Shown: positions 11,730-33,715 of the stretch, one piece after another
Layout of the letters: each line of letters starts with the position of its first letter
Position numbering within the stretch: the stretch's first letter is position 1
From: Bacteroidota bacterium
Lineage (GTDB): Bacteria > Bacteroidota > Bacteroidia > Palsa-965
Direction: 5' to 3'
Assembly (NCBI GenBank): GCA_003151415.1
Contig: PLXK01000190.1
Coordinates: forward strand, 1-41,034
Length of the DNA: 41,034 bases
The notes under the pieces: model-generated
What the model saw: only the letters and a program-made list of their open reading frames with translations
The model's database searches: none
What the model was told of the DNA's origin: nothing
Made by a program: the position numbers and the translations under genes

Positions 11730-11785
11730 TGACTTTAATCATATTGGTCAATGACATGAACTTTTTGAGTCCATGACCAGAGTCA
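11730..11785. promoter_or_regulatory. Three Crp/Fnr-like operator sites at exact 22-bp steps
   Basis: TGACTTTAATCA (11730-11741), TGAC-ATGA-ACTT (11752-11763, left half only) and TGACCAGAGTCA (11774-11785) start exactly 22 bp apart. They lie between the divergent kinase gene (start 11617) and the beta-CASP gene. The same box and 22-bp step recur upstream of four other operons in the window. Sites spaced two helical turns apart on one DNA face suggest cooperative binding or autoregulation. Confidence 0.75.
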
Positions 11786-11808
11786 TTTAACAAGGTGGTG
11801 AATAAGCA

Positions 11809-11816
11809 GACTTTTA
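11809..11816 (+). promoter_or_regulatory. Weak -7 element for the beta-CASP gene
   Basis: GACTTTTA begins after a 23-base gap from the operator at 11774-11785, the same class-II-like spacing as at 19574-19616. It matches TAnnTTTG at only four of six fixed positions. If used, transcription would start around 11821, making the GTG at 11795 unusable as a start. Confidence 0.35.
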
Positions 11817-11821
11817 CTGAA

Positions 11822-13282
11822 ATGAAAAGCATGACCTCTCCAGTATCCGAAACCCAGAGTTTCACTTTGCAATTTATGGGCGCTGCCGGTGTTGTTACCG
11901 GATCCAAACATCTTTTGCGGACACCAGAAATAACCGTTCTGATAGATTGCGGGCTTTTTCAGGGCCTGAAAAACCTAAGGCAGTTAAACAGACAGACGCT
12001 GCCGGTTGAAGCAGCTTCCATTCAGGTCGTTATAATCACCCATGCCCATCTCGATCACACGGGTTATCTTCCTGTTCTTGTCAGAAATGGCTTTAAAGGA
12101 AAAATATATCTGACAGGTCCAACATCCGCTTTGACTGAAATAATCCTGCTTGACAGCGCCAAACTTCAGGAGGAAGACGCTGATCATGCCATCCATGCGG
12201 GATACAGCAAGCATAGCCCTGCACTTCCCTTGTATACACAGGAAGACGCCAGGGAAACTTTTAAACATTTGCAAATATGCGCCCACAACGAATGGATTGA
12301 ATTGTCGAAACACATCCGCTTTCGTTTTAAGAAGAACGGCCACATTCTGGGTTCCTGCTTTGTGGAAATGGATTGTTTTGAAAAACGGATTGTTTTCTCG
12401 GGTGATCTTGGAAAACAGGAATCCTATTCCCTGGCTCCGCCGCTGATTCCGGAAAAGGCGGACATTCTTGTTATCGAATCTACTTATGGCGATCGTCTTC
12501 ATCCTGCCACATCGTCTGAAAAAGAACTTTCGGACATTATCCATGATGTCATTCACAAAAAAGGAACACTACTCATTCCAAGTTTTGCTGTGGGAAGGGC
12601 ACAGGATCTCATGCTTTTGATCAACCTGATGAAAAAGAAAAATTTCATTCCGGACATTCCTGTTTACCTGGACAGCCCCATGGGTAAAAATGCGACAGAA
12701 GTGTACAGAGATTTTCCTGATTGGCATAAACTGCCTCCCGAACAATGTGCAGATATGTGGAACAACATTATCTGGGTGAGTGACCTCAAGGAAACTTACA
12801 AAGTTATAGACAAGCCCGGACCCAAGATTGTAATTGCAGCCAGCGGCATGCTCACTGGCGGGCGGGTCTTGCACTATTTAAAAAATTACCTGGGCCAACA
12901 TCAGAACACTATTCTTTTAACGGGTTATCAGGCAGCCGGAACCCGCGGAAGAGCCCTGCGGTCGAAGGTTCACGAGATAAAAATATTTGGATCCTACTAC
13001 CCTGTGAAGGCTGAAGTAAAAGAAATGGCTACCCTTTCTGCCCATGCCGATCAGCGGGAACTGATCAACTGGATGAAAGCCATTCCCAATAAGCCGGAAC
13101 GGATTTTTATTGTACATGGCGAGCCCAGTGCATCGTATGCCCTGGAGCTGAAGATTCATGATGAATTGGGATGGAACGCAGTCACTCCAATAATGAATGA
13201 AACATTTGAACTGGCAGGCAAACAGAATATCCGTGGGGCCGATGCAACTGCTCCAGCGCTTCCCGAAAATGTCACTAAATAA
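11822..13282 (+). CDS. MBL-fold/beta-CASP metallo-hydrolase (CPSF/RNase-like)
   Basis: 486 residues from the ATG at 11822; ATG 11831 is equally possible and GTG 11795 would lie upstream of the predicted transcription start. Metallo-beta-lactamase fold with THAHLDHTG as the metal-binding HxHxDH motif, a later GHILGSCF His and the Asp in FSGDLG. The beta-CASP insert has ESTYGDR, PSFAVGRAQ and AASGMLTGGR, and the C-terminal RMMBL has LSAHADQ and VHGEP. This is the architecture of RNA-processing nucleases such as the CPSF-73-like bacterial proteins. Substrate is unknown. Divergent from the two-component system with shared operators, so probably part of the same low-oxygen response; followed 12 bases later by a YtxH gene. 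Confidence 0.9.
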   Translation: MKSMTSPVSETQSFTLQFMGAAGVVTGSKHLLRTPEITVLIDCGLFQGLKNLRQLNRQTLPVEAASIQVVIITHAHLDHTGYLPVLVRNGFKGKIYLTGPTSALTEIILLDSAKLQEEDADHAIHAGYSKHSPALPLYTQEDARETFKHLQICAHNEWIELSKHIRFRFKKNGHILGSCFVEMDCFEKRIVFSGDLGKQESYSLAPPLIPEKADILVIESTYGDRLHPATSSEKELSDIIHDVIHKKGTLLIPSFAVGRAQDLMLLINLMKKKNFIPDIPVYLDSPMGKNATEVYRDFPDWHKLPPEQCADMWNNIIWVSDLKETYKVIDKPGPKIVIAASGMLTGGRVLHYLKNYLGQHQNTILLTGYQAAGTRGRALRSKVHEIKIFGSYYPVKAEVKEMATLSAHADQRELINWMKAIPNKPERIFIVHGEPSASYALELKIHDELGWNAVTPIMNETFELAGKQNIRGADATAPALPENVTK

Positions 13283-13294
13283 CAAACAAGACTT

Positions 13295-13498
13295 ATGCCT
13301 GAAACAAACAACACAACAAAAATTTTGCTTGCCATAATTGCAGGCGCAGCCGCGGGCATTGCTATCGGCGTATTGCTCGCTCCCGACAAAGGGTCTGAGA
13401 CGAGGAAAAAGATCAAGGAAAAAGCGGAAGATCTGGTCCAAAGAATCAAGGATGAAATGGCGGGCAATGGCTCTGCTGATTCTTCAACGAATGCCTGA
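13295..13498 (+). CDS. YtxH domain-containing small membrane protein
   Basis: 67 residues. One N-terminal transmembrane helix (about 8-27, Ala/Gly/Ile-rich), then LLAPDKGSETRKKIKEKAEDL, the characteristic YtxH continuation into an amphipathic charged helix. Family members are stress-linked in Firmicutes and Bacteroidota, but their biochemical role is unknown. It follows the beta-CASP gene by 12 bases and is probably cotranscribed with it. Confidence 0.88.
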   Translation: MPETNNTTKILLAIIAGAAAGIAIGVLLAPDKGSETRKKIKEKAEDLVQRIKDEMAGNGSADSSTNA

Positions 13499-13624
13499 AT
13501 TCAACTCTTCATCTTCTCTCAAATCAGAACAACAATTGCATTTAACATTCCGACACACCACGGCTCCACTCCCTATCCACGAAAAAGGAGAAGCCGATTG
13601 AACTCATCTCAAAAAATTTGAAAA

Positions 13625-13978
13625 ATGGAACAGGAAAAAACCGAATTGGAAGACCTTTCTGAAAAGGCAACAATCTACTTAAACACCCGTCTGGAGCTGG
13701 GCCAATTGAAAGCAATGGAATACGGAGCCCTCACTTTTGCGGCAGTATTGGGAAAAATGGTCATTCTGATGGTTTTCTTTTGCTGTCTGATTTTCTCGAG
13801 CCTTGCCCTGGCCATCTATTTGTCCGTATGCACCCGAAACCCCTGGCTTGGCAGCCTTCTGGTGGCTGGTTTCTACCTGATTGTCTTTGTTTTAGTGTAT
13901 GTAAACCGCAGAAGAATACTCCACCTACCCTTTGCAAATATGTTTATCAGGCAAATAACCGGCAGCCATGAAAAATAA
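13625..13978 (+). CDS. Phage holin-like (holin-X/YqjE-type) membrane protein
   Basis: 117 residues: a charged N-terminal helix (1-30) and two long transmembrane segments (about 43-68 and 76-96) separated by CTRNPW, then a basic tail. This is the layout of the 'phage holin family' proteins (YqjE-like) found in stress clusters with YtxH/YqjD-type proteins. Despite the family name there is no phage gene nearby and no reason to expect lysis. It overlaps the next gene by 11 bases. The gap 13499-13624 holds no gene I can support. Confidence 0.75.
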   Translation: MEQEKTELEDLSEKATIYLNTRLELGQLKAMEYGALTFAAVLGKMVILMVFFCCLIFSSLALAIYLSVCTRNPWLGSLLVAGFYLIVFVLVYVNRRRILHLPFANMFIRQITGSHEK

Positions 13979-14270
13979 CCCAAAAACACTCCAGGAACTC
14001 CGGGCTCAGATCATTGAGGCAGAATCCCGGAAAAACGAGCAGGAATCAGCACTCCGGACCTCGGTACACCAGTTCGCGGCAAGCCTGAAACCAGAGAAAA
14101 TATTGCTTTATATGGCTGGCAAACTTGTGGCCAAATGGCTTGGAAAGCAAAAGGAAAAGGAAGAAAAAGAAACCGAACTGAAAGGTTCTGTACTTGATAT
14201 TGCAAAACGTTTTGCTTCGGAGGCCATTGCAAAAGGTATTGACTTGCTTGCAGGTAAATTATTTCCCTGA
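13968..14270 (+). CDS. Small charged helical protein of the YtxH/holin-like cluster
   Basis: 100 residues, not recognised as a named family. It is mostly helical and charged (Glu/Lys/Gln-rich), with weakly hydrophobic stretches (LLYMAGKLVAKWLG and the C-terminal IDLLAGKLF) that suggest peripheral membrane association. The start ATG at 13968 overlaps the holin-like gene, so translational coupling is likely. In related clusters a soluble YqjK-like partner occupies this place, but similarity by eye is too weak to name it. Confidence 0.7.
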   Translation: MKNNPKTLQELRAQIIEAESRKNEQESALRTSVHQFAASLKPEKILLYMAGKLVAKWLGKQKEKEEKETELKGSVLDIAKRFASEAIAKGIDLLAGKLFP

Positions 14271-14399
14271 AAAGCTGATTTATTGCTATTGTTTCGAACG
14301 CTTCTTCAAACAAATAAAGGTCAAAAATAATTTCAATGACTTGGGATTTGAATTGAATCAGGTGCTCAGGTGTTAAGTGCTACTAGTCTTCAATGATAA

Positions 14400-14678
14400 C
14401 CTTCATTTCAAGCAGTCAAAGGTTTTGAAAAATTACCTGGCCGGTTATTCAATAACAAAGGAGTGCAATACATCGGAAAAATAAGCTATGGGGTGTATCT
14501 GTATCACAAACCGGTGCCTTCTTTGGTTACGCCTCAAATTGGAAAATTATTGCACCTTCATTTAAATCCGGCCATGTCATGTGCAATCTCTATTCTGGCA
14601 ACCGTGTTTATAGCACACTTGTCTTATGTCTTAATCGAAAAAAGTTTTTTGAAACTGAAAGAAAAATTTGAGGATTAG
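14400..14678 (+). pseudogene. C-terminal remnant of an acyltransferase-3 (OafA-like) gene
   Basis: The frame opens right after a TAA at 14397-14399 and gives LFNNKGVQYIGKISYGVYLYHKP, the highly conserved segment before the last transmembrane helices of acyltransferase-3 proteins, then IEKSFLKLKEKFED, the usual C-terminus. These proteins are normally about 350-400 residues, so over three quarters is missing. No remnant of the N-terminal part is visible between 14271 and 14399, where I see no other feature. The GTG at 14463 lies inside the conserved region and is not a natural start. This is a second broken acyl-transfer gene in the window, beside the interrupted SGNH gene at 4145. Confidence 0.8.
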
Positions 14679-14709
14679 CCCCCTTTTACCAGGGAATGGA
14701 TGGTCGAGC

Positions 14710-16071
14710 TCAAATCGTTTTACTAAACTGAACTACCTCGGGCTGCTTCACTCTCATCCTGGCATCGAAAGTCATGCAAATATTCCGGATAAATGGAAGG
14801 CCTTTAGGTGTGACCGAAAGCCCAAATTCATCCATATTCACAAGGCCATCTGCTTCCAGTTCTTCGAGCAACAGCCTGGTTTGCTCAAGAGCAATGCATT
14901 GCCCGGTTTCCGATCTCCACGATGTTTCTCCGTAACACATGATGTTCAGAATATGTCTTCGCAGAATCTGGTCCTCATGTGTAAGCAAGTGTCCTCTGAA
15001 GAATGGAAGCTTGTTTTCATTTACACGTTTATAGTAATCTTCCACTTTTTTTTCATTCTGAATAAATGCTGTCCAGGAATCACTGATTGACGAAACCCCG
15101 AGACCGATAAGGAGGCTTGTCGCAAAAGGCGTGTACCCCATAAAATTCCGGTGAAGACGTTTCGCCTTCTGAGCCAGATAGAGTTCGTCTGTTTCCAAGG
15201 CAAAATGGTCCATTCCAATTTCCTTATACCCATTCTCTTCCAGCATTTTTCTTCCTGTTTCATACAGTTCCAGTTTTTCACTATCGGCGGGCAGATCGGC
15301 TTCCGTGAATTTTCGCTGTCCCGGCTTGATCCAGGGAATGTGCGCGTAACTATAAAAAGCAATCCGGTCGGGACGCAGCAGGATAACCTTTTCAATTGTA
15401 GAGACAATACTGGCCTTGGTCTGTTTGGGAAGTCCGTAAATGAGGTCAAAATTGATTGATTCAAAGCCTTCTCTCCGGCTGGCTTCAGTGAGCTGTTTCA
15501 CTGAGTCAAAAGACTGGACCCGATTTACAATTTCCTGAACAACGGGATCAAAATCCTGAACTCCGATGCTTATGCGCTTAAATCCCAATTTGGCCAAAAC
15601 CTCCAGATGTTCTATGGTGGTGTTGTTCGGATGCGCTTCAAAGCTGAATTGTGCGTCCGGGCAAACCAAGGCAGAAGAGGTTATACCTTCAATCAGGGCA
15701 TTCAGGTTTAAGGGGCTGAAAAAAGTGGGTGTACCACCACCCAGATGCAATTCCCGGATACGGGGTGTGGTTTCAAACAGACTTAAATAAAGAGCCCATT
15801 CTTTCAGCACTGCGGCAATGTAGATCCGCTCAACACCATGATTTACCGTAATGCGTGTATTGCAGCCGCAATATGTACACAGACTCTCACAAAAAGGCAG
15901 ATGGATATAAACACTGATGCCCTCAGCGGCGTTTGTCCGGAGAAAAGTATTTTTCACTTCCTTCTCCCAGTCTTCAACAGTTGGGGTTTCAGTCCAAAAG
16001 GGGACAGTTGGATAACTGGTATATCTGGGCCCAGGAACATTGTATTTTGCAAAAAGAGAGGATGAGGACAT
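14710..16071 (-). CDS. hemN: Oxygen-independent coproporphyrinogen III dehydrogenase
   Basis: 453 residues, full length for HemN. The radical SAM cluster motif is C61-E-S-L-C65-T-Y-C68 with C70 following, in HLPFCESLCTYCGCN. The N-terminal FAKYNVPGPRYTSYPTVP and the GGGTPTFF segment are typical of true HemN rather than HemW. It converts coproporphyrinogen III to protoporphyrinogen IX without oxygen, providing heme when oxygen is scarce, which fits the cbb3 oxidase genes upstream on the same strand. It lies 36 bases after queD and is probably cotranscribed with it. I found no TGAC-N4-GTCA box directly upstream. Confidence 0.95.
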   Translation of the reverse strand: MSSSSLFAKYNVPGPRYTSYPTVPFWTETPTVEDWEKEVKNTFLRTNAAEGISVYIHLPFCESLCTYCGCNTRITVNHGVERIYIAAVLKEWALYLSLFETTPRIRELHLGGGTPTFFSPLNLNALIEGITSSALVCPDAQFSFEAHPNNTTIEHLEVLAKLGFKRISIGVQDFDPVVQEIVNRVQSFDSVKQLTEASRREGFESINFDLIYGLPKQTKASIVSTIEKVILLRPDRIAFYSYAHIPWIKPGQRKFTEADLPADSEKLELYETGRKMLEENGYKEIGMDHFALETDELYLAQKAKRLHRNFMGYTPFATSLLIGLGVSSISDSWTAFIQNEKKVEDYYKRVNENKLPFFRGHLLTHEDQILRRHILNIMCYGETSWRSETGQCIALEQTRLLLEELEADGLVNMDEFGLSVTPKGLPFIRNICMTFDARMRVKQPEVVQFSKTI

Positions 16072-16107
16072 GATTCATGATTTTAGGTAATCTGACCCGA
16101 TTGCAGA

Positions 16108-16572
16108 TCAGGCTCTGTTTGGATATTCATTGTCTTCGGCACACCATTCCGCATACGAGCTAGGTGTTTCACGAAGCAGCAAACGAATCAATTTTACTTT
16201 GTTGGGCAAAGATTCCCGGAGTTTTTCAGAAAAATCAAGCAACAGGTTTTCGCAGGTAGGCTGATAGGAAACCATAACCAGCTTTCCAAAGAATAAAGAC
16301 TGATCCTTCAGGTGTAAAGGTGCATCTTCTTCGTTAAGAACAAGTGCATGATCCAGCCAATTGACGATTCTTCCATTCACTATATTCTTCAATTCTCCAA
16401 AATCCATCACCATCCCCTGCTCCGAACTTCCCTCTTCCGTGTTCAAAGAGCCCAAAACAGTGACCGACAGATGATAGGAATGCCCGTGAATGTTCTTGCA
16501 AGGCCCTTCATGATTTTTGAGGGCATGGGCCATTTCAAAACCAAATTCTTTTGTGATACGGATACGCTTCAT
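16108..16572 (-). CDS. queD: 6-carboxytetrahydropterin synthase family protein (QueD/PTPS)
   Basis: 154 residues. Zinc-binding histidines H16 (FEMAHAL), H29 and H31 (NIHGHSY), catalytic Cys25 in GPCKNIHGH, PTCENLL near the C-terminal third and ETPSSYAEW at the end, all as in the 6-pyruvoyl-tetrahydropterin synthase superfamily. The likely reaction is 7,8-dihydroneopterin triphosphate to 6-carboxy-tetrahydropterin in queuosine synthesis. A pterin role cannot be excluded, as no other que gene is in the window. Just upstream lies a perfect 14-bp palindrome. Confidence 0.9.
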   Translation of the reverse strand: MKRIRITKEFGFEMAHALKNHEGPCKNIHGHSYHLSVTVLGSLNTEEGSSEQGMVMDFGELKNIVNGRIVNWLDHALVLNEEDAPLHLKDQSLFFGKLVMVSYQPTCENLLLDFSEKLRESLPNKVKLIRLLLRETPSSYAEWCAEDNEYPNRA

Positions 16573-16597
16573 GTCAATAAATTTCTTTCAAAGGTCA

Positions 16598-16611
16598 TAG
16601 GGTATACCCTA
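16598..16611. promoter_or_regulatory. Perfect 14-bp palindrome upstream of queD
   Basis: TAGGGTATACCCTA is fully self-complementary and lies 26-39 bases upstream of the queD ATG (16572), in the promoter region. It is flanked by two copies of AAGGTCAT on the plus strand (from 16591 and 16621, 30 bp apart). Its symmetry suggests a dimeric repressor site; the factor is unknown. Confidence 0.5.
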
Positions 16612-16682
16612 CATATTTTTAAGGTCATCTCGTATGCATCCCAATAGCTGTTCTTTTTGTGATTGCTGAAGAACATTCAGCT

Positions 16683-18059
16683 TCACACACTTTCAATCAA
16701 TAGCGGAGAATCTTTTTTTACCTGACTGATCCCCCCCCGTACATTCAGGATGTGGCTGAATCCATTTGCTTTCAAAATTGAAGCGGCAATCATTGACCGA
16801 TATCCTCCGGCGCAATAAACCATGTATTTTTGTTTGGGATCCAGAGTGTTCAATCTCCCAACCAGCGAATTCAAAGGAATGTTTAAACTGTCCTTCATGC
16901 GGCCGCCAGAAACTTCTGCCGCAGTGCGGACATCGAGTGGAGTATATCCGGACTTCAGATAATACTCCAGCTGGTGCTCTGAAATTGTCTGCACGTGATC
17001 AACTGGAAAATGCGCGTTGATCCAACCGATCAGGTCACCTTTCAGGTAGCCATGAACCTTGTCAAAACCAATTCTCGCCAACCGGGTAACCGCTTCTTCC
17101 TTTTGCTGATCATGCACCACCAAAACAATTGACTTGTCTGAAGGAATCATATTTCCCGCCCACACGGCAAAAGCACCATCAAGTCCGATATTCACTGACC
17201 CCTTGATAAAGCCAATGCCAAACTCGGTTGAATTCCTGACATCGAGAACGACTGAGCCTTTTTCAATTTCCAAATGAAAAGCCGCGGCACTCAAAGGCCT
17301 TGTTCCTTTCCGGATTACCTCTTCAAGAGCTTCATAACCATCCCTGTTCGCTGTGACATCGTGAACAAAATAAGGAGGAACCTCAGGAAGATCTCCTGTA
17401 ACCTGCTCTATGAATTGCAATTTGTCCATTGTTTGCAACGCATAATTTTTACGCTTTTGCGCTCCGATTGTGGACCAGGTTTCTTTTCCCAAATTCTTTC
17501 CGCAGGCAGAACCGGCTCCATGCCCGGGGTAAATAATGACATCGTCAGGCAAAGTCTTGATCTTTAGATTGAGCGAATCGTAGAGCAGGGAAGCTAATTC
17601 TTCCTTGCCCAGATTTCCGCTTCCCAGATCCGGTCTTCCGACATCGCCCACAAAAAGCGTATCGCCTGTAAAAATAGCATGAGGTGTATTTGTTTCATCA
17701 TACACAAGATAACAACAGGACTCCACTGTGTGTCCGGGGGTATGAACCAATTTAATTTTCAATTCCCCCAGATAGATGCTATCTCCATCTTTGGCTACCA
17801 TTGCTTTATAGCCCGGAGTGGCTCCCGGACCAAAAAGAATTACGGCTCCCGTTGTTCGTGCAAGTTCAAGATGTCCGGAAACAAAATCGGCATGAAAGTG
17901 GGTTTCCAGAACATATTGAATCTTGGCATTTCTTTGCTTTGCCAATTGCAAATAGATGTCCACGTCCCGGATCGGATCAACCACCGCAGCACAGCCCTTG
18001 GACTCAATATAATACGAGGCCTGCGAAAGACATGAAGTATAGATTTGTTTGATGTACAT
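16683..18059 (-). CDS. Persulfide dioxygenase with two rhodanese domains (CstB-like)
   Basis: 458 residues. N-terminal metallo-beta-lactamase fold of ETHE1 type: THFHADFVSGH (H54, H56, D58, H63), HTPGHT and FTGDTLFVGDVGRPDL. Then a rhodanese domain (~255-355) whose active-site loop VLVVHDQQKE lacks the cysteine, and a second rhodanese (~365-458) with the intact loop VYCAGGYRS. This MBL / Cys-less rhodanese / active rhodanese order matches staphylococcal CstB, which oxidises persulfides and makes thiosulfate. It is start-to-stop adjacent to the PLP decarboxylase gene upstream and is third in an operon that begins at 19542 with a class-II-like operator. Confidence 0.9.
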   Translation of the reverse strand: MYIKQIYTSCLSQASYYIESKGCAAVVDPIRDVDIYLQLAKQRNAKIQYVLETHFHADFVSGHLELARTTGAVILFGPGATPGYKAMVAKDGDSIYLGELKIKLVHTPGHTVESCCYLVYDETNTPHAIFTGDTLFVGDVGRPDLGSGNLGKEELASLLYDSLNLKIKTLPDDVIIYPGHGAGSACGKNLGKETWSTIGAQKRKNYALQTMDKLQFIEQVTGDLPEVPPYFVHDVTANRDGYEALEEVIRKGTRPLSAAAFHLEIEKGSVVLDVRNSTEFGIGFIKGSVNIGLDGAFAVWAGNMIPSDKSIVLVVHDQQKEEAVTRLARIGFDKVHGYLKGDLIGWINAHFPVDHVQTISEHQLEYYLKSGYTPLDVRTAAEVSGGRMKDSLNIPLNSLVGRLNTLDPKQKYMVYCAGGYRSMIAASILKANGFSHILNVRGGISQVKKDSPLLIESV

Positions 18060-19310
18060 TTATTTGAAGGTCATTTGTTTAAATCCGTGTACATCATCAA
18101 TAAATCTGTCAATCATACCGTTTTTCACATGTGGCATAACAACTATTTTCCACCACGAGGGAGACTCATCATGCGTATCAGGAACAAGAAAGTAGTTGCG
18201 CGCGACTTTTTCGGGGATTTCAGATGCCGGAATTGAGATTATATTGACATACGGATTATTGAAATAAGAAATTCCGGCATGTTTCAACCGGTTGCATACC
18301 GATTCTGTTTTTGCCATCAGCATATCCATTTTAGCCCTCCACCCTTTTGATCCATAAGTCATTAAAATCATCCAAACAGCCACCGCATTCGCGCCCGACC
18401 GGCTTCCACACAGGGTGTAGTCTTTTCCCGGTACATAGGAAGCTTCTTCTGTGCGAACAAATTGCATCCAACCCTTCCGTATCAAAAATATACCTGTTCC
18501 GTAAGGCGCCTGAAGCAATTTGTGCGCATCCAGGGCGATGGAGGTGATGTGTTTGTTTTGAAAACTGTATGCGCTTTTCCCTTTACTAAAGGGATAAATA
18601 AAACCTCCGAAGGCAGCATCCACATGCATTCTGAAAGGAACACCTTCCTCTTCGAGAACAGCAGTTATGAGGTCAATATCATCCACCGACCCAAACATGG
18701 TGGTGCCCATATTCATGATCACTATAAAATACCGCAAACCTTCAGCAATGGCACTCTGCAAGGCCTTCCGGAAAGCATCTGAATGAATTTCGCGGGTCCC
18801 TTCTTTCACATCAAGGGGCACAGAAAACAAACCGAGCAGATTGGCACCTTTTGCAATCGAATAATGGCTGTCCTTAGAATACACCACGGCAATCTCTTTA
18901 TCGTTCGCCTCAAAAGCCTCTCTGTAATAATTCCGGTAGATCCACATGGCCTCTATATTGGCTTCCGTGCCACCACTCGCAATATATCCATCCTGCTTAC
19001 CCTTTTCTCCCTCAAAAATTTCCTCCGCACATAAACGAATAACCTCAATTTCCAATCGCTGGGTTCCTTTAAATGCCTGTTCGCTTTGGTCCTCTCCCAG
19101 AGTATGACAGCCAATGTGATTCGGGTTGGCAAGAAAAGCAGAAAGAAAAGCCGCTTGTTCCAGAAACGGGGCATCCTCATAAAACTCGACTTCATCCAAA
19201 TATGTGGCCGGAAAGCCCAGAACGTCTTCGTTCCGATAGTTTCGGTTTTCTGCCAGGGCTTGAAAAACCCGTTTCTTTATCTCCTCCGATGAACGTCTTT
19301 CCCAATTCAT
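18060..19310 (-). CDS. Pyridoxal-phosphate group II decarboxylase
   Basis: 416 residues from ATG 19310 (MNWERRSSEE), which leaves a one-base gap to the upstream gene. The alternative ATG 19340 would add 10 residues and overlap it. Fold type I: GGTEANI, His149 stacking PLP (SHYS), Asp231 in HVDAAFGG and the Schiff-base Lys264 in ALDAHKLLQAPYGTG. It belongs to the glutamate/histidine/aromatic amino acid decarboxylase superfamily. The substrate cannot be told from motifs. Cotranscription with a persulfide dioxygenase suggests a sulfur-containing amino acid or stress amine as a possibility, but this is speculation. Confidence 0.88.
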   Translation of the reverse strand: MNWERRSSEEIKKRVFQALAENRNYRNEDVLGFPATYLDEVEFYEDAPFLEQAAFLSAFLANPNHIGCHTLGEDQSEQAFKGTQRLEIEVIRLCAEEIFEGEKGKQDGYIASGGTEANIEAMWIYRNYYREAFEANDKEIAVVYSKDSHYSIAKGANLLGLFSVPLDVKEGTREIHSDAFRKALQSAIAEGLRYFIVIMNMGTTMFGSVDDIDLITAVLEEEGVPFRMHVDAAFGGFIYPFSKGKSAYSFQNKHITSIALDAHKLLQAPYGTGIFLIRKGWMQFVRTEEASYVPGKDYTLCGSRSGANAVAVWMILMTYGSKGWRAKMDMLMAKTESVCNRLKHAGISYFNNPYVNIISIPASEIPEKVARNYFLVPDTHDESPSWWKIVVMPHVKNGMIDRFIDDVHGFKQMTFK

Positions 19311-19311
19311 T

Positions 19312-19542
19312 TCAGGCAGCCTCTTTGTGATGATGGCCATCTTTGCTCTCGCCTGTCATTTTCGTTTTTTCAATTTCAGAGCGCGAATTGAGAATTCCGA
19401 AAACAGTACAACCCACAAGCACCAGAAGGAAATTAAGCAGGCTTTTGGGCCCCATATCGGGTTGATTCAGGTAGGCCAGACGAAAGGGGAATAAAATCGT
19501 TAAAACAAGTACGGCTATTGCAATTATTTTTCTGGTGCTCAT
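19312..19542 (-). CDS. Small two-TM membrane protein leading the decarboxylase operon
   Basis: 76 residues, no family recognised. Two hydrophobic helices (about 5-22 and 34-50), then a charged tail ending in a His cluster (DGHHHKEA). It is the first gene of the unit that includes the PLP decarboxylase and persulfide dioxygenase; the stop is one base before the decarboxylase ATG. The promoter has a perfect TGAC-N4-GTCA box and TATTTTTG -7 element, which supports it being a real, regulated gene. Confidence 0.7.
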   Translation of the reverse strand: MSTRKIIAIAVLVLTILFPFRLAYLNQPDMGPKSLLNFLLVLVGCTVFGILNSRSEIEKTKMTGESKDGHHHKEAA

Positions 19543-19573
19543 GGGCTTGGTTTTTGATGAATATTAAGGAAAT

Positions 19574-19638
19574 CAAAAATAGTTGGTGGCTCAAAATCAG
19601 AATATGACTTTTGTCATGTCAATAAATGACATTGGACC
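19574..19638 (-). promoter_or_regulatory. Class-II-like operator and promoter of the decarboxylase/persulfide dioxygenase operon
   Basis: TGACTTTTGTCA (19605-19616) is a perfect palindrome in its TGAC/GTCA arms. On the minus strand it is followed after 23 bases by TATTTTTG (19574-19581), a perfect TAnnTTTG. That centres the box near -41.5, as for class II Crp/Fnr activation. A second half-site TGAC (19627-19630) starts exactly 22 bp upstream of the full box. The ATG at 19542 lies 31 bases past the -7 element. Confidence 0.8.
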
Positions 19639-19697
19639 TGTCAAACCTAAAACCTTGATTCTAAATGCCTCGGGGCAAGCTGAATCTGTGACTGGTA

Positions 19698-20603: not shown

Positions 20604-21149
20604 TCAAGGTGAAATCTTTTCTCCTTTGGCTGACCGCCGGGATGCACGGGCCACTTTTGGCATCAGCAATATATCTTCAAGATAAAACTGCCTGTACAGG
20701 TGTTGTTCGAGCGTATGCAACTCCGACAAGGTCACTTTCATTCCCTCGCTGGCCTGAGATTCCGCTTTAAATCCATGACTCAAAATCGAGAGATCGGCCA
20801 GAAAAGTTCTCATCTGCATGTGTTTGGTGTGGATGTCGTTCAACTCAAATTCAAAGGCCGACAAAACGTCTGCACTGTTTATCTTTTCTTCCAAAATATT
20901 CTCTATGAAGGGAAACAAAATGCGTGTATTTTTTCTGATTTGATTTTGAACCAGCACAACCAATTTATTGTATTCCTTTTCCACTGCGTACAATGCCGGA
21001 TAAATGTCTGCATTCACTTTAACAGCGGATGACACGTGAATATTCACCCGCTCTATCAAATGCTGCACGGCAGGGTAATGCTTTTCGGTCAAAAAAAACA
21101 TAAGCTCAGAGGGTTGCATTTTTCTGAAATTCAAAGCTGAATGTTTCAT
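20604..21149 (-). CDS. Diverged hemerythrin-like / RIC (YtfE-type) protein
   Basis: 181 residues from ATG 21149 (MKHSALNF). The frame is open to 21263, but that start would lie upstream of the predicted promoter and covers its operator. The layout resembles RIC di-iron proteins: H24/H30 and H38 in the first helix pair, ILFPFIENIL, IHTKHMQMRTFLADL, ELHTLEQHLYRQFYLEDILLMP. Two expected ligands are missing: Q70 stands where RIC has His and N74/T75 where it has Glu before ILFP. It may bind a different or incomplete metal centre. RIC proteins repair Fe-S clusters damaged by NO or oxidants. The promoter carries the shared operator, which fits a redox-stress role. Confidence 0.7.
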   Translation of the reverse strand: MKHSALNFRKMQPSELMFFLTEKHYPAVQHLIERVNIHVSSAVKVNADIYPALYAVEKEYNKLVVLVQNQIRKNTRILFPFIENILEEKINSADVLSAFEFELNDIHTKHMQMRTFLADLSILSHGFKAESQASEGMKVTLSELHTLEQHLYRQFYLEDILLMPKVARASRRSAKGEKISP

Positions 21150-21166
21150 AGTATTTTTATATAAAA

Positions 21167-21231
21167 CAAAAATAATACCAGACGAAGCCCTTAAAAATGA
21201 TGTCTGACAGACAATGAAGTGACAAATATCA
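21167..21231 (-). promoter_or_regulatory. Class-I-like operator and promoter of the RIC-like/Usp operon
   Basis: Box TGACAAATATCA (21220-21231) is followed on the minus strand after 45 bases by TATTTTTG (21167-21174), a perfect TAnnTTTG, placing the box near -63. A second half-site TGAT (21198-21201) starts exactly 22 bp nearer the promoter, at the -41.5 position. That region also contains a 13-bp palindrome TGTCTGACAGACA (21201-21213). The ATG at 21149 follows the -7 element by 17 bases. Confidence 0.78.
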
Positions 21232-21272
21232 ATGAGCGGTAAAAAACGAGCTATGGCTGCCAAAGTACGGCA

Positions 21273-25332: not shown

Positions 25333-27465
25333 TCAGGGCTTGACTCCATCCGTCGATGTCTTTATTTTGATATCCGTACCCAGTCTTTGCAGATAAGCGA
25401 TAAGAGCAACGATTTCTTTTCCGGCCGGAGTTTCGATCTTGTCCTGTTTCAGGTTAGCGGCAATCCCTACACTTTGTTTCACCAAATCCACATTGGCTAT
25501 TTTATCATATCCTTTCGGATAGGGTACGCCAAGGGTAATCATTGCACGGATTTTACCTGCAGTTGAAGCCGTATCCAGATCGTTGTCCAACAACCAGGGG
25601 TAATTGGGCATACTGGAATGTTCCGACATCGAAGTGGGTTCAAGCATGTGGTTGTAATGCCAGGCATTGGGATACTTTCCTCCTATCCGGGCCAAATCAG
25701 GGCCGGTACGCTTGGATCCCCACTGAAAAGGATGATCATACACAAATTCTCCGGCTTTTGAGTATTCGCCATAACGGGCCGTTTCATGTCTCAGGGGTCT
25801 GATCATCTGAGAGTGGCAGTTGTAACACCCTTCGCGGATATAAATGTCTCTGCCCTGAAGCTCCAGCGCGGTGTAAGGCTTTACACTTGCGATAGTCGGC
25901 ACATTCGACTGTATCAGGAATGTGGGCACCATTTCGATGACACCGCCGATGATAACAACGACAAGACTGAGGAGCAGCAATTGAACCGGGCGGCGCTCAA
26001 CCCAACGATGCCAGTGGTCTCCGGCGTGCGCTTTGTAATTCTTTGTCAACGGTGCTGCTTCCGCCTCTTCGTTAGCCAGGAAAGAACCGGCTTTCACTGT
26101 TTTATAAAGATTAAAGGCCATCATGATTGCGCCAACCAGATAAAACAAGCCGCCCACAGAACGCATCATCTGAAGCGGACGGATATGCTCAACCGTATTC
26201 AAAAACTGGTATTGCAACTGCCCCTCTTCCGTAAATTTACTCCACATCTGACTTTGAGTAAATCCCGCCCAGTACATGGGTACCGCGTAAAAAACAATCC
26301 CAAGGGTACCGATCCAAAAATGCCAATTGGCCATTTTCTTTGAATAGATTTCTGTTCTGAACATTTTGGGTATCAGCCAGTAGAGTATGCCAAATGTCAG
26401 AAAGCCGTTCCAGCCGAGGGCGCCGATGTGCACATGGGCAATTGTCCAGTCGGTAAAATGACTGATCGCATTCACACTTTTCAACGAAAGCATTGGACCT
26501 TCAAAGGTGGCCATGCCGTAGCAGGTAACGGCAACGACCATAAATTTCAGCACCACATCTTCACGCACCTTATCCCAGGCACCCCGAAGCGTGAGGAGTC
26601 CATTGATCATGCCTCCCCAGGAAGGAGCGATAAGCATGATTGAAAATGCCACTCCGAGAGATTGCGCCCAATCCGGAAGAGCGGTGTACAGCAGGTGATG
26701 CGGGCCGGCCCAGATGTACAGAAAAATAAGTGCCCAGAAATGGATGATGGATAAACGATACGAATAAACAGGCCGGTTCGCCACTTTCGGGATGAAATAA
26801 TACATCAGACCCAGATAAGGAGTTGTTAAAAAGAAAGCAACCGCATTGTGCCCGTACCACCATTGTACCAAGGCATCCTGAACACCGGCGTACCAGCTGT
26901 AACTTTTCATGAAAGAAACCGGTATTTCAAACGAATTGACAATATGCAACATGGCCACGGTAATGAATGTGGCTATGTAAAACCAAATGGCCACATACAA
27001 ATGACGTTCTCTCCGGCGGATGATCGTTCCAAACATGTTCCAACCGAAGACAACCCAAATCAACGCGATAGCTATGTCTATCGGCCATTCCAGCTCCGCA
27101 TATTCCTTTCCTGTTGTGAATCCAAGAGGCAGGGTCAGAACAGCAGAAACAATGATTAGCTGCCACCCCCAGAAATGAATCCAGCTCAGCCTGTCGCTAA
27201 ACATCCTCGCTTTGCAAAGCCGCTGAAGGGAATAATACACACCCATGAATATCCCGTTGCCCACAAAAGCAAAAACAACCGCATTCGTGTGCAATGGCCG
27301 GATCCGCCCGAATGTGGTGATCGGAACCCCCATATTCAAAGCCGGAAAAACAAGTTCCAGAGCAGCCCAAAGGCCAACGAGCATACCAATCAGTCCCCAA
27401 ATGACCGTCGCAAATGCAAAATACTTGACGATTTTGTTATCGTATGAAAATTTTTCCACTTCCAT
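25333..27465 (-). CDS. ccoNO: Fused cbb3 oxidase subunits I and II (CcoN-CcoO)
   Basis: 710 residues. The CcoN part (~1-465) has 12 or more helices: H59 (low-spin heme ligand), H206 in WWYGHNAVAFF, H256/H257 in AGPHHLLY (copper B site) and H344/H346 in DWTIAHVHIGALGWNG (heme ligands). A linker ~465-490 leads to CcoO: a membrane helix 495-515 and the c-heme motif C547-Y-N-C550-H551, followed by a Met-rich heme-binding domain (MSEHSSMPNYPW). The fusion of N and O in one chain is common in Bacteroidota. It is the catalytic core of a high-affinity oxygen reductase. Confidence 0.97.
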   Translation of the reverse strand: MEVEKFSYDNKIVKYFAFATVIWGLIGMLVGLWAALELVFPALNMGVPITTFGRIRPLHTNAVVFAFVGNGIFMGVYYSLQRLCKARMFSDRLSWIHFWGWQLIIVSAVLTLPLGFTTGKEYAELEWPIDIAIALIWVVFGWNMFGTIIRRRERHLYVAIWFYIATFITVAMLHIVNSFEIPVSFMKSYSWYAGVQDALVQWWYGHNAVAFFLTTPYLGLMYYFIPKVANRPVYSYRLSIIHFWALIFLYIWAGPHHLLYTALPDWAQSLGVAFSIMLIAPSWGGMINGLLTLRGAWDKVREDVVLKFMVVAVTCYGMATFEGPMLSLKSVNAISHFTDWTIAHVHIGALGWNGFLTFGILYWLIPKMFRTEIYSKKMANWHFWIGTLGIVFYAVPMYWAGFTQSQMWSKFTEEGQLQYQFLNTVEHIRPLQMMRSVGGLFYLVGAIMMAFNLYKTVKAGSFLANEEAEAAPLTKNYKAHAGDHWHRWVERRPVQLLLLSLVVVIIGGVIEMVPTFLIQSNVPTIASVKPYTALELQGRDIYIREGCYNCHSQMIRPLRHETARYGEYSKAGEFVYDHPFQWGSKRTGPDLARIGGKYPNAWHYNHMLEPTSMSEHSSMPNYPWLLDNDLDTASTAGKIRAMITLGVPYPKGYDKIANVDLVKQSVGIAANLKQDKIETPAGKEIVALIAYLQRLGTDIKIKTSTDGVKP

Positions 27466-27474
27466 AAATGTTCT

Positions 27475-27690
27475 TTAATTTGACTTGGTTGAATGAATCT
27501 GAGCATCTGGTTTAGCCATTCCGGCAGCTTCCTTTTTTGACGACGAAGCAAGGGTTTCATCAAACAGCATTCGCACAGACGGCGTGTAATCGTCATCGTA
27601 CTGGCCTGTCTTTACAGACCAGATGAACGCTATCAGAAAAGCTCCGGCAACAAGTAAACTTGCTCCCAAAAGAATAAATAGTGCACTCAT
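27475..27690 (-). CDS. ccoS: cbb3 oxidase maturation protein CcoS
   Basis: 71 residues: one N-terminal helix, then FIWSVKTGQYDDDYTPSVRMLFDE, the CcoS signature (W-x5-GQ[YF]DD). CcoS is needed for heme and copper insertion. Here it heads the operon ccoS-ccoNO-ccoQ-ccoP-ccoG-fixH-safE; gaps are short throughout. Its promoter carries the shared operator. Confidence 0.93.
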   Translation of the reverse strand: MSALFILLGASLLVAGAFLIAFIWSVKTGQYDDDYTPSVRMLFDETLASSSKKEAAGMAKPDAQIHSTKSN

Positions 27691-27712
27691 AGAAGCTTTG
27701 ATTAGAATGGCA

Positions 27713-27777
27713 TAAAAGTAGATCAGCGCATGTCGTGTCCGAATGACATTTGCTTGCCATTTGCATGACTTTTGTCA
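27713..27777 (-). promoter_or_regulatory. Class-I-like operator and promoter of the cbb3 oxidase operon
   Basis: TGACTTTTGTCA (27766-27777), identical to the box at 19605, is followed on the minus strand after 45 bases by TACTTTTA (27713-27720), one base off TAnnTTTG. A half-site TGAC (27744-27747), inside AATGACATT (27742-27750), starts 22 bp closer to the promoter. The layout matches the RIC-like/Usp promoter base for base in spacing. Confidence 0.82.
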
Positions 27778-27867
27778 GGTGTGAAATGTCTGACCGGAGT
27801 TTTTTATCGTTGAAAAAAAAATCCAATGCGCTGAAAATATATTTGGATACAGGCTCAAGAGGATATT

Positions 27868-30279: not shown

Positions 30280-31252
30280 CCGTCTTGTTCTTTTTATTCT
30301 TCTGGTCCTTCTTCTTAAAGTATTTTCTCAGAAAATAATTGTGCTTCAATGCTTCCATGCTGGAATCGAAATTCGCGGCCCCCCTTTTAAAATCGATCAC
30401 CGATTCATCAATGTGACGAACAAGCAGGGTATCCTCCAGCATGGCACCGATACTTCCTTCTCCGTGCGCGAGTTTATCCGACATGGCACCCAAGTCCTCG
30501 GCTATTTTTTCCGCTTTCCGGCTGCTCAGGCGGATATCCATTGCAGCTTTGTTCAAATTGAGATACAAAGAAGAATCCCTGATCAGGGAACCCAGAGTAC
30601 CTTTTCCCTTGTTTACATTCACAATCATTTCGGAAAGGCCATTCGAAATTTTTCTGGCGTTGCCTCCCGATGATCTGATATCCAACACGGTTTGTTTCAC
30701 ATTCTCAGCAACGGCTGTATCCATCAGCAGGCTCCACAATGTATTCTTGGCACTGAACCGGCTGGTGATCACCTTGACATCATCAGTTATCAATTCGAGG
30801 TTGTCATTTGTTTTGTTCAATGTCCGGAGGGCATTGTCCAGTTCAATATTGGGCAGCACCAGCAAAAATTGCCCTTCTTTCAGGGGCAATCCGGACTTCT
30901 TTCCCGGGGCTATATTTACAATTTTATTTCCCATCAGGCCATCGGTGCCAATGGAAGCAATTGATGTAGATGTTATGTGGCCAAAAGATGATTTTTCGAT
31001 ATTCAGCTCAGCTTGAATTGCAGTATCCGAAATGATTGTCACCTTTGAAACAGTGCCTATTTCAATACCTCCGAACCGGACATTGTTTCCTGACATGAGC
31101 CCGTTGACATTCTTAAAAACGGCATTGATTGTCACCGTTGAGTTAAACATACTCCTTTTGCCCCCAATTTTATAAAGAGCAATGGCAAACAGAAGCGTAG
31201 TGACCACTACAAAAATCCCTAATTTCAGCCGGTTGTTGGTTTTCGTTTCCAT
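30257..31252 (-). CDS. mlaD: MCE-family phospholipid-transport substrate-binding protein (MlaD)
   Basis: 331 residues. N-terminal membrane anchor (about 11-27), MCE/MlaD domain ~35-115 with NVNGLMSGNNVRFGGIEIGTV, then a long helical tail with repeated GTLGSLIRDSSLY / GSIGAMLEDTLLV units. MlaD forms the periplasmic hexamer of a phospholipid transporter with MlaE and MlaF, which are encoded immediately upstream. The C-terminal end is Lys-rich (KKDQKNKKNK). Confidence 0.92.
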   Translation of the reverse strand: METKTNNRLKLGIFVVVTTLLFAIALYKIGGKRSMFNSTVTINAVFKNVNGLMSGNNVRFGGIEIGTVSKVTIISDTAIQAELNIEKSSFGHITSTSIASIGTDGLMGNKIVNIAPGKKSGLPLKEGQFLLVLPNIELDNALRTLNKTNDNLELITDDVKVITSRFSAKNTLWSLLMDTAVAENVKQTVLDIRSSGGNARKISNGLSEMIVNVNKGKGTLGSLIRDSSLYLNLNKAAMDIRLSSRKAEKIAEDLGAMSDKLAHGEGSIGAMLEDTLLVRHIDESVIDFKRGAANFDSSMEALKHNYFLRKYFKKKDQKNKKNKTDDSGSKN

Positions 31253-31253
31253 G

Positions 31254-32006
31254 CTAGTCGAAGAATTGCTTAATGTTTTTATCCTGACTCTTTTTTAAAT
31301 CATCATACGTACCTTCGGCATAATTTTTTCCTTCTATGAGGACCACCACCCGATTGGCCGTCATCCGAACACAGTTCATATCATGCGAAATAATGATTGA
31401 CGATGTGCGGAACTTTTCCTGGACCTCAAGCATGAGGTGATTAATCTCCCTTCCGGTTACAGGATCCAGACCTGTGGTCGGTTCATCATAGAGCATCACT
31501 TCGGGGTTCAGGATCAGAGTCCGGGCGATTCCGATGCGTTTCCTCATTCCACCGGAAAGCTCTGCGGGTGACATTTTCTGAGTTCCTTTCAGGCCGACAC
31601 TTAAAAGAGCATCATCGACCATTTTCGCGATATCATATTTTACATTTCTTTTCAGATGTCTTCGCAGAGGAAATTCCAGGTTCTCCTGAACCGTCATGGA
31701 ATCGTACAAGGCACTGCTTTGGAACAAAAAACCAATTTTAGCACGCATGTTGTCCAGCTCCTCCTGTTTCAAATCAAGCATATTTGTTCCTAAAACATGG
31801 ATCGTTCCAGCATGCGGATCAAGCAACCTGACAATGCATTTGATGAGAACGGATTTGCCCGTTCCAGACCTCCCCAGAACAACCACATTCTCGCCCTTGT
31901 TGACCACAAGGTTAAAGCCGGCCAGGACATGATTCTCACCAAAGGATTTTTCCAGATTCCTTATTTCGATGACAGTCTCATTTCTATTTTCGGCCATGGG
32001 GTTCAT
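31254..32006 (-). CDS. mlaF: Phospholipid ABC transporter ATP-binding protein (MlaF)
   Basis: 250 residues. Walker A GRSGTGKS (45-52), signature LSGGMRKRIGIARTL, Walker B VMLYDEPTTGLDP and an H-loop in IIISHDMNCV. The LSGGMRKR form of the signature is typical of the Mla ATPase. Its start overlaps the mlaE stop by four bases and it ends one base before mlaD. Confidence 0.95.
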   Translation of the reverse strand: MNPMAENRNETVIEIRNLEKSFGENHVLAGFNLVVNKGENVVVLGRSGTGKSVLIKCIVRLLDPHAGTIHVLGTNMLDLKQEELDNMRAKIGFLFQSSALYDSMTVQENLEFPLRRHLKRNVKYDIAKMVDDALLSVGLKGTQKMSPAELSGGMRKRIGIARTLILNPEVMLYDEPTTGLDPVTGREINHLMLEVQEKFRTSSIIISHDMNCVRMTANRVVVLIEGKNYAEGTYDDLKKSQDKNIKQFFD

Positions 32007-32785
32007 AAAAGATGCAGAATATCTGAAATTTGCGCAGCAAGAAGATCCACAATAAAAACAATGAAGGATGAAATGACAACAGCAGCATTGGCGGATCGTC
32101 CTACCCCTTCGGTTCCATTGCTTGTGGTGTATCCTTTAAAAGAACCGACCAGCCCGATCACAAAACCAAAAAAAATCGATTTAATAATTGAAGGCAGCAC
32201 GTCACCAAAAGTCAGCTTATTGAAAACCTGAGTGGTATAAAGATCGAACGTTGTTACTCCGCGGATATTTACGCCTAGAAACCCACCATACAGAGCTATC
32301 ATATCACCGAAAATAACAAGCAGGGGCAGCATGATCGTTGTGGAAAGCACCCGTGTCGCCACCAGGTATTTGAAAGGATTGGTGCCGGAAACTTCCATCG
32401 CATCGATCTGTTCTGTAACCTTCATGGAACCAATTTCAGCCCCTATGCTCGATCCTATTTTACCGGCACAAATCAGAGCGGTAATGACCGGTGTAATTTC
32501 CCGCACAAGAGAAACAGAAACAATGGAAGGCAACCAGGATTCTGCGCCGAAAACTTCCAAAGCCGGGTGAGACTGGATTGTAATAACCAGTCCCATAATG
32601 AATGCCGTAAAAGAAACCAGGGGAATCGAACGATAGCCTATTTCATAGGATTGCCGCAACAGCTCCTGAAACTCATAAGGCGGCCTGAACCCTTCGCGAA
32701 AAAAACGAATCGCAAACTGAGAAAGCTCCCCCGCTTCTATAAAAAAAGTCTTTATCGGCTTGCTGATGCCTTCTCCAAGTGTCAT
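32003..32785 (-). CDS. mlaE: Phospholipid ABC transporter permease (MlaE)
   Basis: 260 residues with about five to six membrane helices and the diagnostic cytoplasmic segment GKIGSSIGAEIGSMKVTEQIDAMEV. It is the inner-membrane permease of the MlaEFD complex, which moves phospholipids between the membranes to keep the outer membrane asymmetric. It overlaps mlaF by four bases. Confidence 0.95.
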   Translation of the reverse strand: MTLGEGISKPIKTFFIEAGELSQFAIRFFREGFRPPYEFQELLRQSYEIGYRSIPLVSFTAFIMGLVITIQSHPALEVFGAESWLPSIVSVSLVREITPVITALICAGKIGSSIGAEIGSMKVTEQIDAMEVSGTNPFKYLVATRVLSTTIMLPLLVIFGDMIALYGGFLGVNIRGVTTFDLYTTQVFNKLTFGDVLPSIIKSIFFGFVIGLVGSFKGYTTSNGTEGVGRSANAAVVISSFIVFIVDLLAAQISDILHLL

Positions 32786-32824
32786 TAATCTGAAATATTG
32801 AATTACATGTTCAAATCAGGGACA

Positions 32825-33175
32825 TTACAAGTCCAATGCCGCATTTTTCAAAAGATCGATCTGCATGTGTGCCGTATTGGGGTTTGCCGTACTGCCATTG
32901 AGACAAACCAGATAAAACCCAAGGACTGACAACTTCCAGTCATAAGTGACCCCTTCATAGGAGCATTTATAGATCTGTTTGAAATTCTTCCGAACCGACA
33001 GGCCCGCATGCAGGCAAATTTCCATGGCCCGTTTTACTGCTTCATGAAGCTCTTCAGCATTTTCGAACTGCATTTTATTTGCTGCATCCGATGCGTAATA
33101 AACAAGATTCAGCTCCCTTGTCATCTCGCTGAGCAGGTCTTCGCTTTGCTCCTGATAGATTTGCACACTTAGCAT
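32825..33175 (-). CDS. Conserved-looking protein of unknown function in the mla-ccoI operon
   Basis: 116 residues, no family recognised. Soluble, no signal peptide; N-terminal acidic helix, then a central region with FKQIYKCSYEGVTYDWKLS and two cysteines (C94 as well as that in KCSYEG). It lies 39 bases upstream of mlaE and 45 bases after the TerB-like gene on the same strand, so it is probably second in an operon of six. Confidence 0.65.
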   Translation of the reverse strand: MLSVQIYQEQSEDLLSEMTRELNLVYYASDAANKMQFENAEELHEAVKRAMEICLHAGLSVRKNFKQIYKCSYEGVTYDWKLSVLGFYLVCLNGSTANPNTAHMQIDLLKNAALDL

Positions 33176-33220
33176 ACCGTTTGTTTTTTAATTTGTTTCA
33201 TGAATCCGGTAAATCCGGTT

Positions 33221-33625
33221 TCATTCAGTAAGATGACTGAATACAGGGTCGCCCTGAATATCTTTCAATTGACTGATGATCTCAGAAATCAACATCCGCT
33301 CTTCCTCCGTCACAGGTGGAAAAGCCTCTGCCACTTTGCCAATGACCGAAATGAAATGGCTCTTCAGTTTTTCACTCAGATACTGGCTGTTCAGTTTCAT
33401 TTCATGCAAAGCCCAATCGAATGCCGTTTTTGAATCCATTCCTTCCTTTTGGAGGATATGAAAAACAATCTCCGTTGGATCGATCAATGATTCATGCCCC
33501 CTGAATTCAGAAAGCAGAATCCGGTGAAGCTGATCTTTTTCTTCTTTCTGAATTTTACCATTCACCTTGGCTATAGCATAACACAATTCACCGAGTGCAT
33601 AGTAGAGTTGTTCTATTTGGTCCAT
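33221..33625 (-). CDS. TerB-like (TerB family) small helical protein
   Basis: 134 residues, all-helical. The opening LYYALGELCYAIAKVNGKIQKEEKDQLHRIL resembles the first helices of TerB-like domains (tellurite-resistance family), including the conserved acidic/polar turn after AKVNG. TerB-like domains bind metal or act as membrane-associated stress adaptors; the specific role is unknown. It is the first gene after the operator-bearing promoter and heads the operon that contains mlaEFD and ccoI. Confidence 0.65.
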   Translation of the reverse strand: MDQIEQLYYALGELCYAIAKVNGKIQKEEKDQLHRILLSEFRGHESLIDPTEIVFHILQKEGMDSKTAFDWALHEMKLNSQYLSEKLKSHFISVIGKVAEAFPPVTEEERMLISEIISQLKDIQGDPVFSHLTE

Positions 33626-33651
33626 CTGTCAGTTTCCTTAGTTTGTTATAG

Positions 33652-33715
33652 CAAAGGTATTTGGCTGTGACCCCGAGAAAATGACATTTAACGGTGCGAC
33701 ACATGACCCTTATCA
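33652..33715 (-). promoter_or_regulatory. Class-I-like operator and promoter of the TerB-mla-ccoI operon
   Basis: TGACCCTTATCA (33704-33715) is followed on the minus strand after 44 bases by TACCTTTG (33652-33659), a perfect TAnnTTTG. A half-site TGAC (33682-33685), inside AATGACATT (33680-33688), starts exactly 22 bp nearer the promoter. The rest of the 33626-33860 gap holds no gene. Confidence 0.8.

Follow-up and report, generated by a model that had tools for sequence, protein, structure and literature searches.

The 41,034-nucleotide (nt) window analyzed here (contig PLXK01000190.1 of assembly GCA_003151415.1, positions 1–41,034 of the forward strand), from a Bacteroidota bacterium of the Palsa-965 lineage, carries a cbb3 oxidase operon preceded by two FNR/FixK-type boxes placed 22 base pairs (bp) apart. 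Box pairs of this kind occur in five regions of its non-coding DNA, four of which exhibit a common layout on the promoter strand, RTCA-N18-RTCA-N22 or N23-TAnnTTTR. All four lie on the minus strand. The first precedes ccoS (27475–27690, minus strand; NCBIfam TIGR00847), the first gene of the cbb3 oxidase operon, and the ccoN-ccoO fusion gene (25333–27465, minus strand), the core target. Here the distal box, at a predicted position near −63.5, is the full palindrome TGACAAAAGTCA (27766–27777); the proximal box, predicted near −41.5, retains only the right arm GTCA (27744–27755); and the −7 element TACTTTTA, one base off TAnnTTTG, begins 23 nt past the proximal box (27713–27720). The promoter of the unit comprising the open reading frame (ORF) 33221–33625, the mla genes and ccoI has the full distal box TGATAAGGGTCA (33704–33715), a proximal box with only the right arm GTCA (33682–33693), and the −7 element TACCTTTG (33652–33659), which begins 22 nt past the proximal site, one short of the norm. 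The RIC-like/Usp promoter combines the full distal box TGATATTTGTCA (21220–21231), the proximal box TGTCAGACATCA with its right arm intact (21198–21209) and the −7 element TATTTTTG at 23 nt (21167–21174). The target RIC/ScdA-like protein (20604–21263, minus strand) matches NCBIfam TIGR03652 below the cut-off; its longest ORF begins upstream of the −7 element, and the true start is probably an ATG near 21149. The fourth promoter serves a pyridoxal-dependent decarboxylase (18060–19340, minus strand) that shares an operon with a persulfide dioxygenase-like protein (16683–18059). Its distal box retains only the right arm GTCA (19627–19638), its proximal box is the full TGACAAAAGTCA (19605–19616), and TATTTTTG follows at 23 nt (19574–19581). 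Thus, a full distal box is joined to a proximal half-site in three of the four promoters and the reverse is seen at 19605. The fifth region, between a kinase gene and a β-CASP gene, holds three sites to which no strand is assigned: TGACTTTAATCA (11730–11741), a site with only the left arm TGAC (11752–11763) and TGACCAGAGTCA (11774–11785).

All six boxes named in the initial annotation (11730, 11774, 19605, 21220, 27766 and 33704) are found in the sequence, together with the partner half-sites claimed 22 bp away (11752, 19627, 21198, 27744 and 33682). The gaps of 45, 45, 44 and 23 nt between full box and −7 element are likewise reproduced at 27766, 21220, 33704 and 19605, the elements being TACTTTTA, TATTTTTG, TACCTTTG and TATTTTTG, respectively. 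The consensus TGAC-N4-GTCA given there holds strictly for 11774, 19605 and 27766 (3 copies versus 0.48 expected in the window), whereas the other three boxes are the variant TGACN4ATCA. When half-sites matching TGAY/RTCA in at least three of the four arms were counted in the window's non-coding DNA, six pairs at 22 bp were obtained from the five regions, and no other spacing between 13 and 49 bp occurred more than once. In 2000 dinucleotide shuffles, 22-bp pairs averaged 0.0045 and never exceeded 1. Additional copies of TGAY-N4-RTCA at 6099, 19689 and 34419 lie inside genes and are unpaired.

Eighty cco loci from other Bacteroidota, with 176 kb of non-coding DNA, were fetched using the window CcoNO protein (73–80% identical). 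In these loci TGAY-N4-RTCA occurs at 1520 copies per Mb of non-coding and 95 per Mb of coding DNA, versus 6 per Mb for control palindromes. This non-coding enrichment, together with the window shuffles, rules out an origin of the boxes from chance or coding sequence. A spacer of 4 bp gives 36 non-coding copies, and spacers elsewhere in the range 0–12 give 0–5. The operator box, a palindrome TGAY-N4-RTCA with a 4-bp spacer, is of the ordinary FNR/FixK kind. The substitution of C for T that the initial annotation stressed as a trait of the system is not diagnostic, since TGAC is no commoner than TGAT in the relatives; a TGAC-specific box is ruled out with C present in about 36% of arms in loci linked to the receiver-Crp protein described below. 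The cAMP-CRP box TGTGA-N6-TCACA is also ruled out, with no coding and one non-coding copy in 1.6 Mb.

The spacing is equally well defined in the relatives. Distances between full boxes are 22 bp in 42 cases and 23 bp in five, with any other value found at most twice, and a TGAY half-site lies 22 bp from a box 163 times on one side and 144 times on the other, versus about 7 at an average position. With the window included, 167 non-coding pairs with at least three of four arms are separated by 22 bp, in 72 of 81 loci; each of the other spacings from 14 to 40 bp yields 2–15 pairs, a background level that argues against alternative layouts, save for a minor 23-bp class. TAnnTTTG follows the proximal box at 23 nt in 84 cases, at 24 nt in six and at 22 nt in three, and is near zero elsewhere. 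Upstream of ccoN, at least three arms plus a −7 element at 22–24 nt are present in 67 of the 80 loci (exactly 23 nt in 64), which confirms conservation of the layout in orthologous promoters; reversed sequences never gave more than one arm. Both arms of the distal box are kept in 66 of the 67 promoters, and the proximal box is short of an arm in 43.

A logo of 119 oriented promoters reads TGAY-N4-RTCAT, N9, TGAY-N4-RTCAT, N22, TAnnTTTG. The spacers hold almost no information, which indicates that selection, as opposed to recent common descent, keeps the sites in place. In promoters of Flavobacterium psychrophilum with mapped starts TAnnTTTG covers −12 to −5 (PMC9723704), and the proximal and distal sites would therefore be centered at −41.5 and −63.5. 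This assignment combines a start position taken from the flavobacterial promoters with a box-to-element distance fixed at 23 nt, and it supports the earlier reading of the pair as class II and class I positions. No −33 element is visible in the logo of the 119 promoters, as would be expected if an activator at −41.5 takes over its role. Full boxes situated 45 nt from a −7 element number 102, compared with 65 at 23 nt, so the distal site is the stronger palindrome. Among the 65 class II-type boxes, 56 have an arm at −22; five of the remaining nine carry a complete box at −23. In the cco loci, nine tandems possess a −7 element 22–24 nt away on both sides, and one in another genome does so at 23 nt on both sides (L225:2472). 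One pair may thus serve two divergent genes, the two dimers swapping class II and class I roles. Single tandems with TAnnTTTR about 23 nt away on each side are found at L225:2472, L031:9749, L033:7152, L053:6979, L055:6894 and L092:19245.

Genome-wide, the 22-bp spacing is clearly enriched; this result and the conservation in orthologous promoters both favor the reading in the initial annotation. The whole promoter pattern, with at most two mismatches allowed, has 24 matches in the window's own genome, compared with none for the reversed pattern. A survey of 396 genomes of the phylum places most matches to the pattern in the window's class, where a genome can have as many as 23 such promoters; beyond this class the pattern is nearly absent save in one genus (G272, G307). 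Full-full pairs at 22 bp number 284 and are distributed over 99 of the 198 class genomes, whereas the 25-bp control gives four. In Hymenobacter, full pairs are spaced at 23 bp. Among eleven cco/fix loci of Proteobacteria, for which plasmid loci were used, none of the full boxes preceding cco genes is partnered at 22 bp; the fixNOQP promoters there carry single boxes. In G307, which carries many tandem operators outside the window's class, one locus (L227) has an Fnr-like gene and tandem promoters near phage-like genes, including a terminase-like ORF at 7566–8897.

Target genes were named by sequence inspection, with the window's own copies backed by Pfam and NCBIfam searches. In the relatives, the genes downstream of tandems are most often the ccoS/ccoNO operon (61 loci), ccoI (17) and Usp (6), followed by ccoG, PNPOx-like, RIC/ScdA, HemN, persulfide dioxygenase, β-CASP, thioredoxin, alcohol dehydrogenase and PfkB genes. 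The own-genome targets, which derive from pattern searches and loci only, include a DoxX-like protein, two TolC-like proteins, two cytochromes c, two Usp proteins and an SDR, again named by inspection. In two genomes, at L225 and L226, tandem promoters are clustered in dense islands together with Hsp20, Usp, PfkB, PNPOx-like, FtsH and P-type ATPase genes. Judged by these names, the predicted targets form a microaerobic set. The cbb3 oxidase of F. psychrophilum is induced by oxygen limitation (PMC9723704).

Two adjacent genes in the window, 8–22 kb from the paired promoters, encode a candidate regulator and sensor. The candidate regulator, receiver-Crp (9255–10400, minus strand), consists of a receiver, a cNMP-binding domain and a Crp-type helix-turn-helix (HTH), as indicated by Pfam matches to PF00027, PF13545 and PF00325. 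Its alignment shows retention of the Glu and Arg that read TGA in Crp/Fnr proteins, and its best Crp-type NCBIfam model is FixK, with a score below the cut-off. The Crp-type output differs from FixJ, in which a receiver is joined to a LuxR/NarL-type HTH. Receiver-Crp also lacks the N-terminal cysteine motif of the FNR cluster; conserved cysteines are found in a separate Fnr-like group. Of the 80 loci, 36 have a receiver-Crp gene no more than about 10 kb from ccoNO; in 14 others, Chitinophaga included, its place is taken by a free-standing Fnr-like protein, mostly with conserved cysteines. The two proteins fall into two groups in a tree, with the receiver fusion forming one group in this sample, and share the helix GTATESxIR, containing the Glu and Arg used by FNR and CRP on TGA. 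The candidate sensor is a PAS histidine kinase (10397–11617, minus strand), assigned by Pfam, structure matches and alignment. Its PAS domain is most similar among solved structures to the FixL heme PAS (1.3e-15), then to DosP, and the proximal heme His is aligned across the kinases compared. The FixL-like PAS domain may bind heme and oxygen. The distal, oxygen-stabilizing Arg is kept in about half of the kinase's relatives.

The distribution of the two proteins matches that of the operator. Class genomes with a full-length receiver-Crp or Fnr-like protein (65) hold 230 of 236 pattern matches, and the 34 genomes with neither hold six. At least two matches are found in 41 of the 65 and in one of the 34 (Fisher p = 1e-9, kinship uncorrected). 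Among the cco loci, those with receiver-Crp alone carry the operator in 33 of 34 cases and those with the Fnr-like protein alone in 13 of 14, and no difference in C/T preference is seen between the operators linked to the two regulators. Tandem promoters lie directly downstream of a receiver-Crp or Fnr-like gene in several genomes, and the operator precedes the kinase gene itself in three relatives. The proposal in the initial annotation that receiver-Crp is the regulator is plausible, but it is not the sole candidate, as in other species this operator is linked to an Fnr-like protein that shares the recognition helix. The window's own genome encodes three receiver-Crp proteins and one Fnr-like protein.

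These data make it likely that Bacteroidota share a conserved operator for activation at low oxygen, composed of two FNR/FixK-type sites 22 bp apart at −41.5 and −63.5 with TAnnTTTG at 23 nt. The paired boxes probably constitute a shared dock for oxygen-responsive activators. The 22-bp spacing, two helical turns, would place both dimer sites on one face of the DNA, and transcription would start from a sigma-A promoter with the −7 element TAnnTTTG located 23 nt downstream of the proximal box. Binding probably begins at the distal full palindrome, and the proximal site, often a half-site, is probably filled cooperatively with the help of the distal dimer; the proximal dimer would then touch RNA polymerase and so make up for the absence of a −33 element. 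For the window, the receiver-Crp protein is the most likely regulator; the neighboring FixL-like PAS kinase would phosphorylate it when oxygen falls, folding the FixL-FixJ-FixK relay into one step. The same operator would be read in other lineages by a free-standing Fnr-like protein that has conserved cysteines. The broader proposal, that in much of the class one invariant −63.5/−41.5/TAnnTTTG layout for two dimers acts as a low-oxygen switch, with the dock passed between FixL-like kinase/receiver-Crp pairs and Fnr-like sensors and a single tandem able to serve two divergent promoters, is favored on balance.

Several observations weigh against this interpretation. The three sites of the fifth region (11730–11785) are in 22-bp phase, and TAnnTTTG is absent at the expected place on both strands. 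The promoter pattern has no match in eighteen class genomes that encode a full-length receiver-Crp, and the regulator is therefore insufficient to predict the layout. The distal Arg of FixL (BjFixL R220) is replaced by Met in the window kinase. Lastly, a second tandem family is located near another Crp paralogue, which raises the possibility that Crp-type activators in general use the layout and that it is not tied to oxygen. This family, TGATCTRSATCAAG..TTAT..ATCAATG, shares the 22-bp/23-nt geometry, is located beside SDR, DoxX and YceI-like genes and another Crp-type regulator, and is probably the operator of that other paralogue. Its sites (L224:2616, 5154 and 5916, minus strand; L223:2882-2915) differ in the proximal half-site (TGATCTRSATCAAG..CTTAT..ATCAATG); three copies stand beside SDR, YceI, DoxX and DsbA-like genes and a 216-residue Crp-type regulator, and a near-identical single copy is present in five genomes of another family. 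Such a family is what one would expect if the layout were a rule for any Crp/Fnr-type activator in Bacteroidota, imposed by the unusual sigma-A promoter and not specific to oxygen. We regard this as possible but rather doubtful, given that all but six of the 236 pattern matches fall in genomes holding receiver-Crp or the Fnr-like protein and that most targets are microaerobic genes.

It is similarly conceivable, yet on the unlikely side, that the reader in the window's own genome is the free-standing Fnr-like protein (C16:6704-7414), acting through iron-sulfur oxygen sensing, while the two-component pair is a neighbor with a role of its own. The protein is a 376-bit member of the Fnr group, in which C10, C13 and C59 are fully conserved and C38 almost fully, and four genomes that possess an Fnr-like protein and lack receiver-Crp (G272, G307, G150, G384) carry several to many tandems. 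Many tandem-bearing genomes, however, hold receiver-Crp and no Fnr-like protein of this group, a tandem promoter is found directly downstream of the receiver-Crp gene in G025, G174, G222, G317 and G325, and operators near either regulator look alike. That the proximal box is instead a repressor site or decoy, with the distal site alone activating from a class I position and the pair shutting off at high regulator dose, is improbable: the proximal box is indeed the more degenerate, but its exact 23-nt distance fits a class II position at −41.5, and no −33 element is available for RNA polymerase to use with a class I activator alone. A pairing due to chance, or to inheritance within a few closely related promoters, can be dismissed, since even though the 80 loci are all relatives (with the CcoNO identities given above), the inter-box spacers are unconserved, unrelated genes share the layout, and the genome-wide survey refutes it, the 22-bp pairs recurring across many families in half of the class genomes and the 25-bp control failing to recur.

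The preferred interpretation, a two-site low-oxygen operator, may be compared with known systems. The FixLJ-FixK/FnrN circuit of Alphaproteobacteria shares the TGAY-N4-RTCA core, the cbb3 oxidase, maturation and HemN targets, and a FixL-like PAS kinase, and for that lineage it has been argued that an Fnr-type sensor and FixL-FixK were exchanged while the sites were retained (PMC4999443). In contrast, the present operator has two boxes at 22 bp where theirs has one and is coupled to a TAnnTTTG promoter, and the receiver is fused to a Crp-type output, whereas FixJ activates fixK. At class II/III promoters of Escherichia coli FNR, the proximal site at −41.5 replaces the upstream core element and a second dimer binds upstream on the same DNA face. 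The second site here differs in being fixed at the predicted −63.5 and nearly obligatory, and half-sites are frequent at the proximal position. HcpR and HcpR2 of Bacteroides and others are FNR-family regulators in the same phylum; the HcpR2 motif is GTAACnnnnGTTAC and its regulon is hcp alone in most species (PMC1274295). Identity with HcpR2 is ruled out, as the present motif is TGAY-N4-RTCA and not GTAACnnnnGTTAC, and the main targets are cco genes and not hcp. The hypoxia regulon of Mycobacterium DosR, a NarL/LuxR-type regulator with an unrelated operator, is alike in content, with Usp, Hsp20, PfkB, PNPOx-like and P-type ATPase genes in the dense islands.

In agreement with the initial annotation, no account of the paired layout in Bacteroidota was found in the openly readable literature. 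Nor was a receiver-Crp regulator of cbb3 genes in this phylum found described in a search of open papers, preprints and most subscription papers lying outside it. As far as open papers show, the invariant two-dimer layout, its 23-nt coupling to TAnnTTTG and the receiver-Crp fusion as probable reader are new. Control of low-oxygen respiration in Bacteroidota and Crp/Fnr activators acting on TAnnTTTG promoters are both little described in the papers searched. The 65-base signature, with very few false positives, makes the microaerobic regulon readable from sequence in about half of the sampled class genomes. It also points to two candidate regulators, and the proposed class II/class I geometry is open to direct test by single-base spacing mutants.

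Two further genes of the window deserve mention. The β-CASP metallo-β-lactamase-fold protein next to the triple array (11795–13282) gives partial matches, well below the cut-offs, to models of Cas14 (type VII CRISPR) and archaeal aCPSF1, and a similar protein in a relative (L030) carries its own tandem promoter. The product of ORF 8136–8678 contains the motif WIGDPCDGI and resembles exosortase-family proteins; the ORF is followed by one for a membrane protein.

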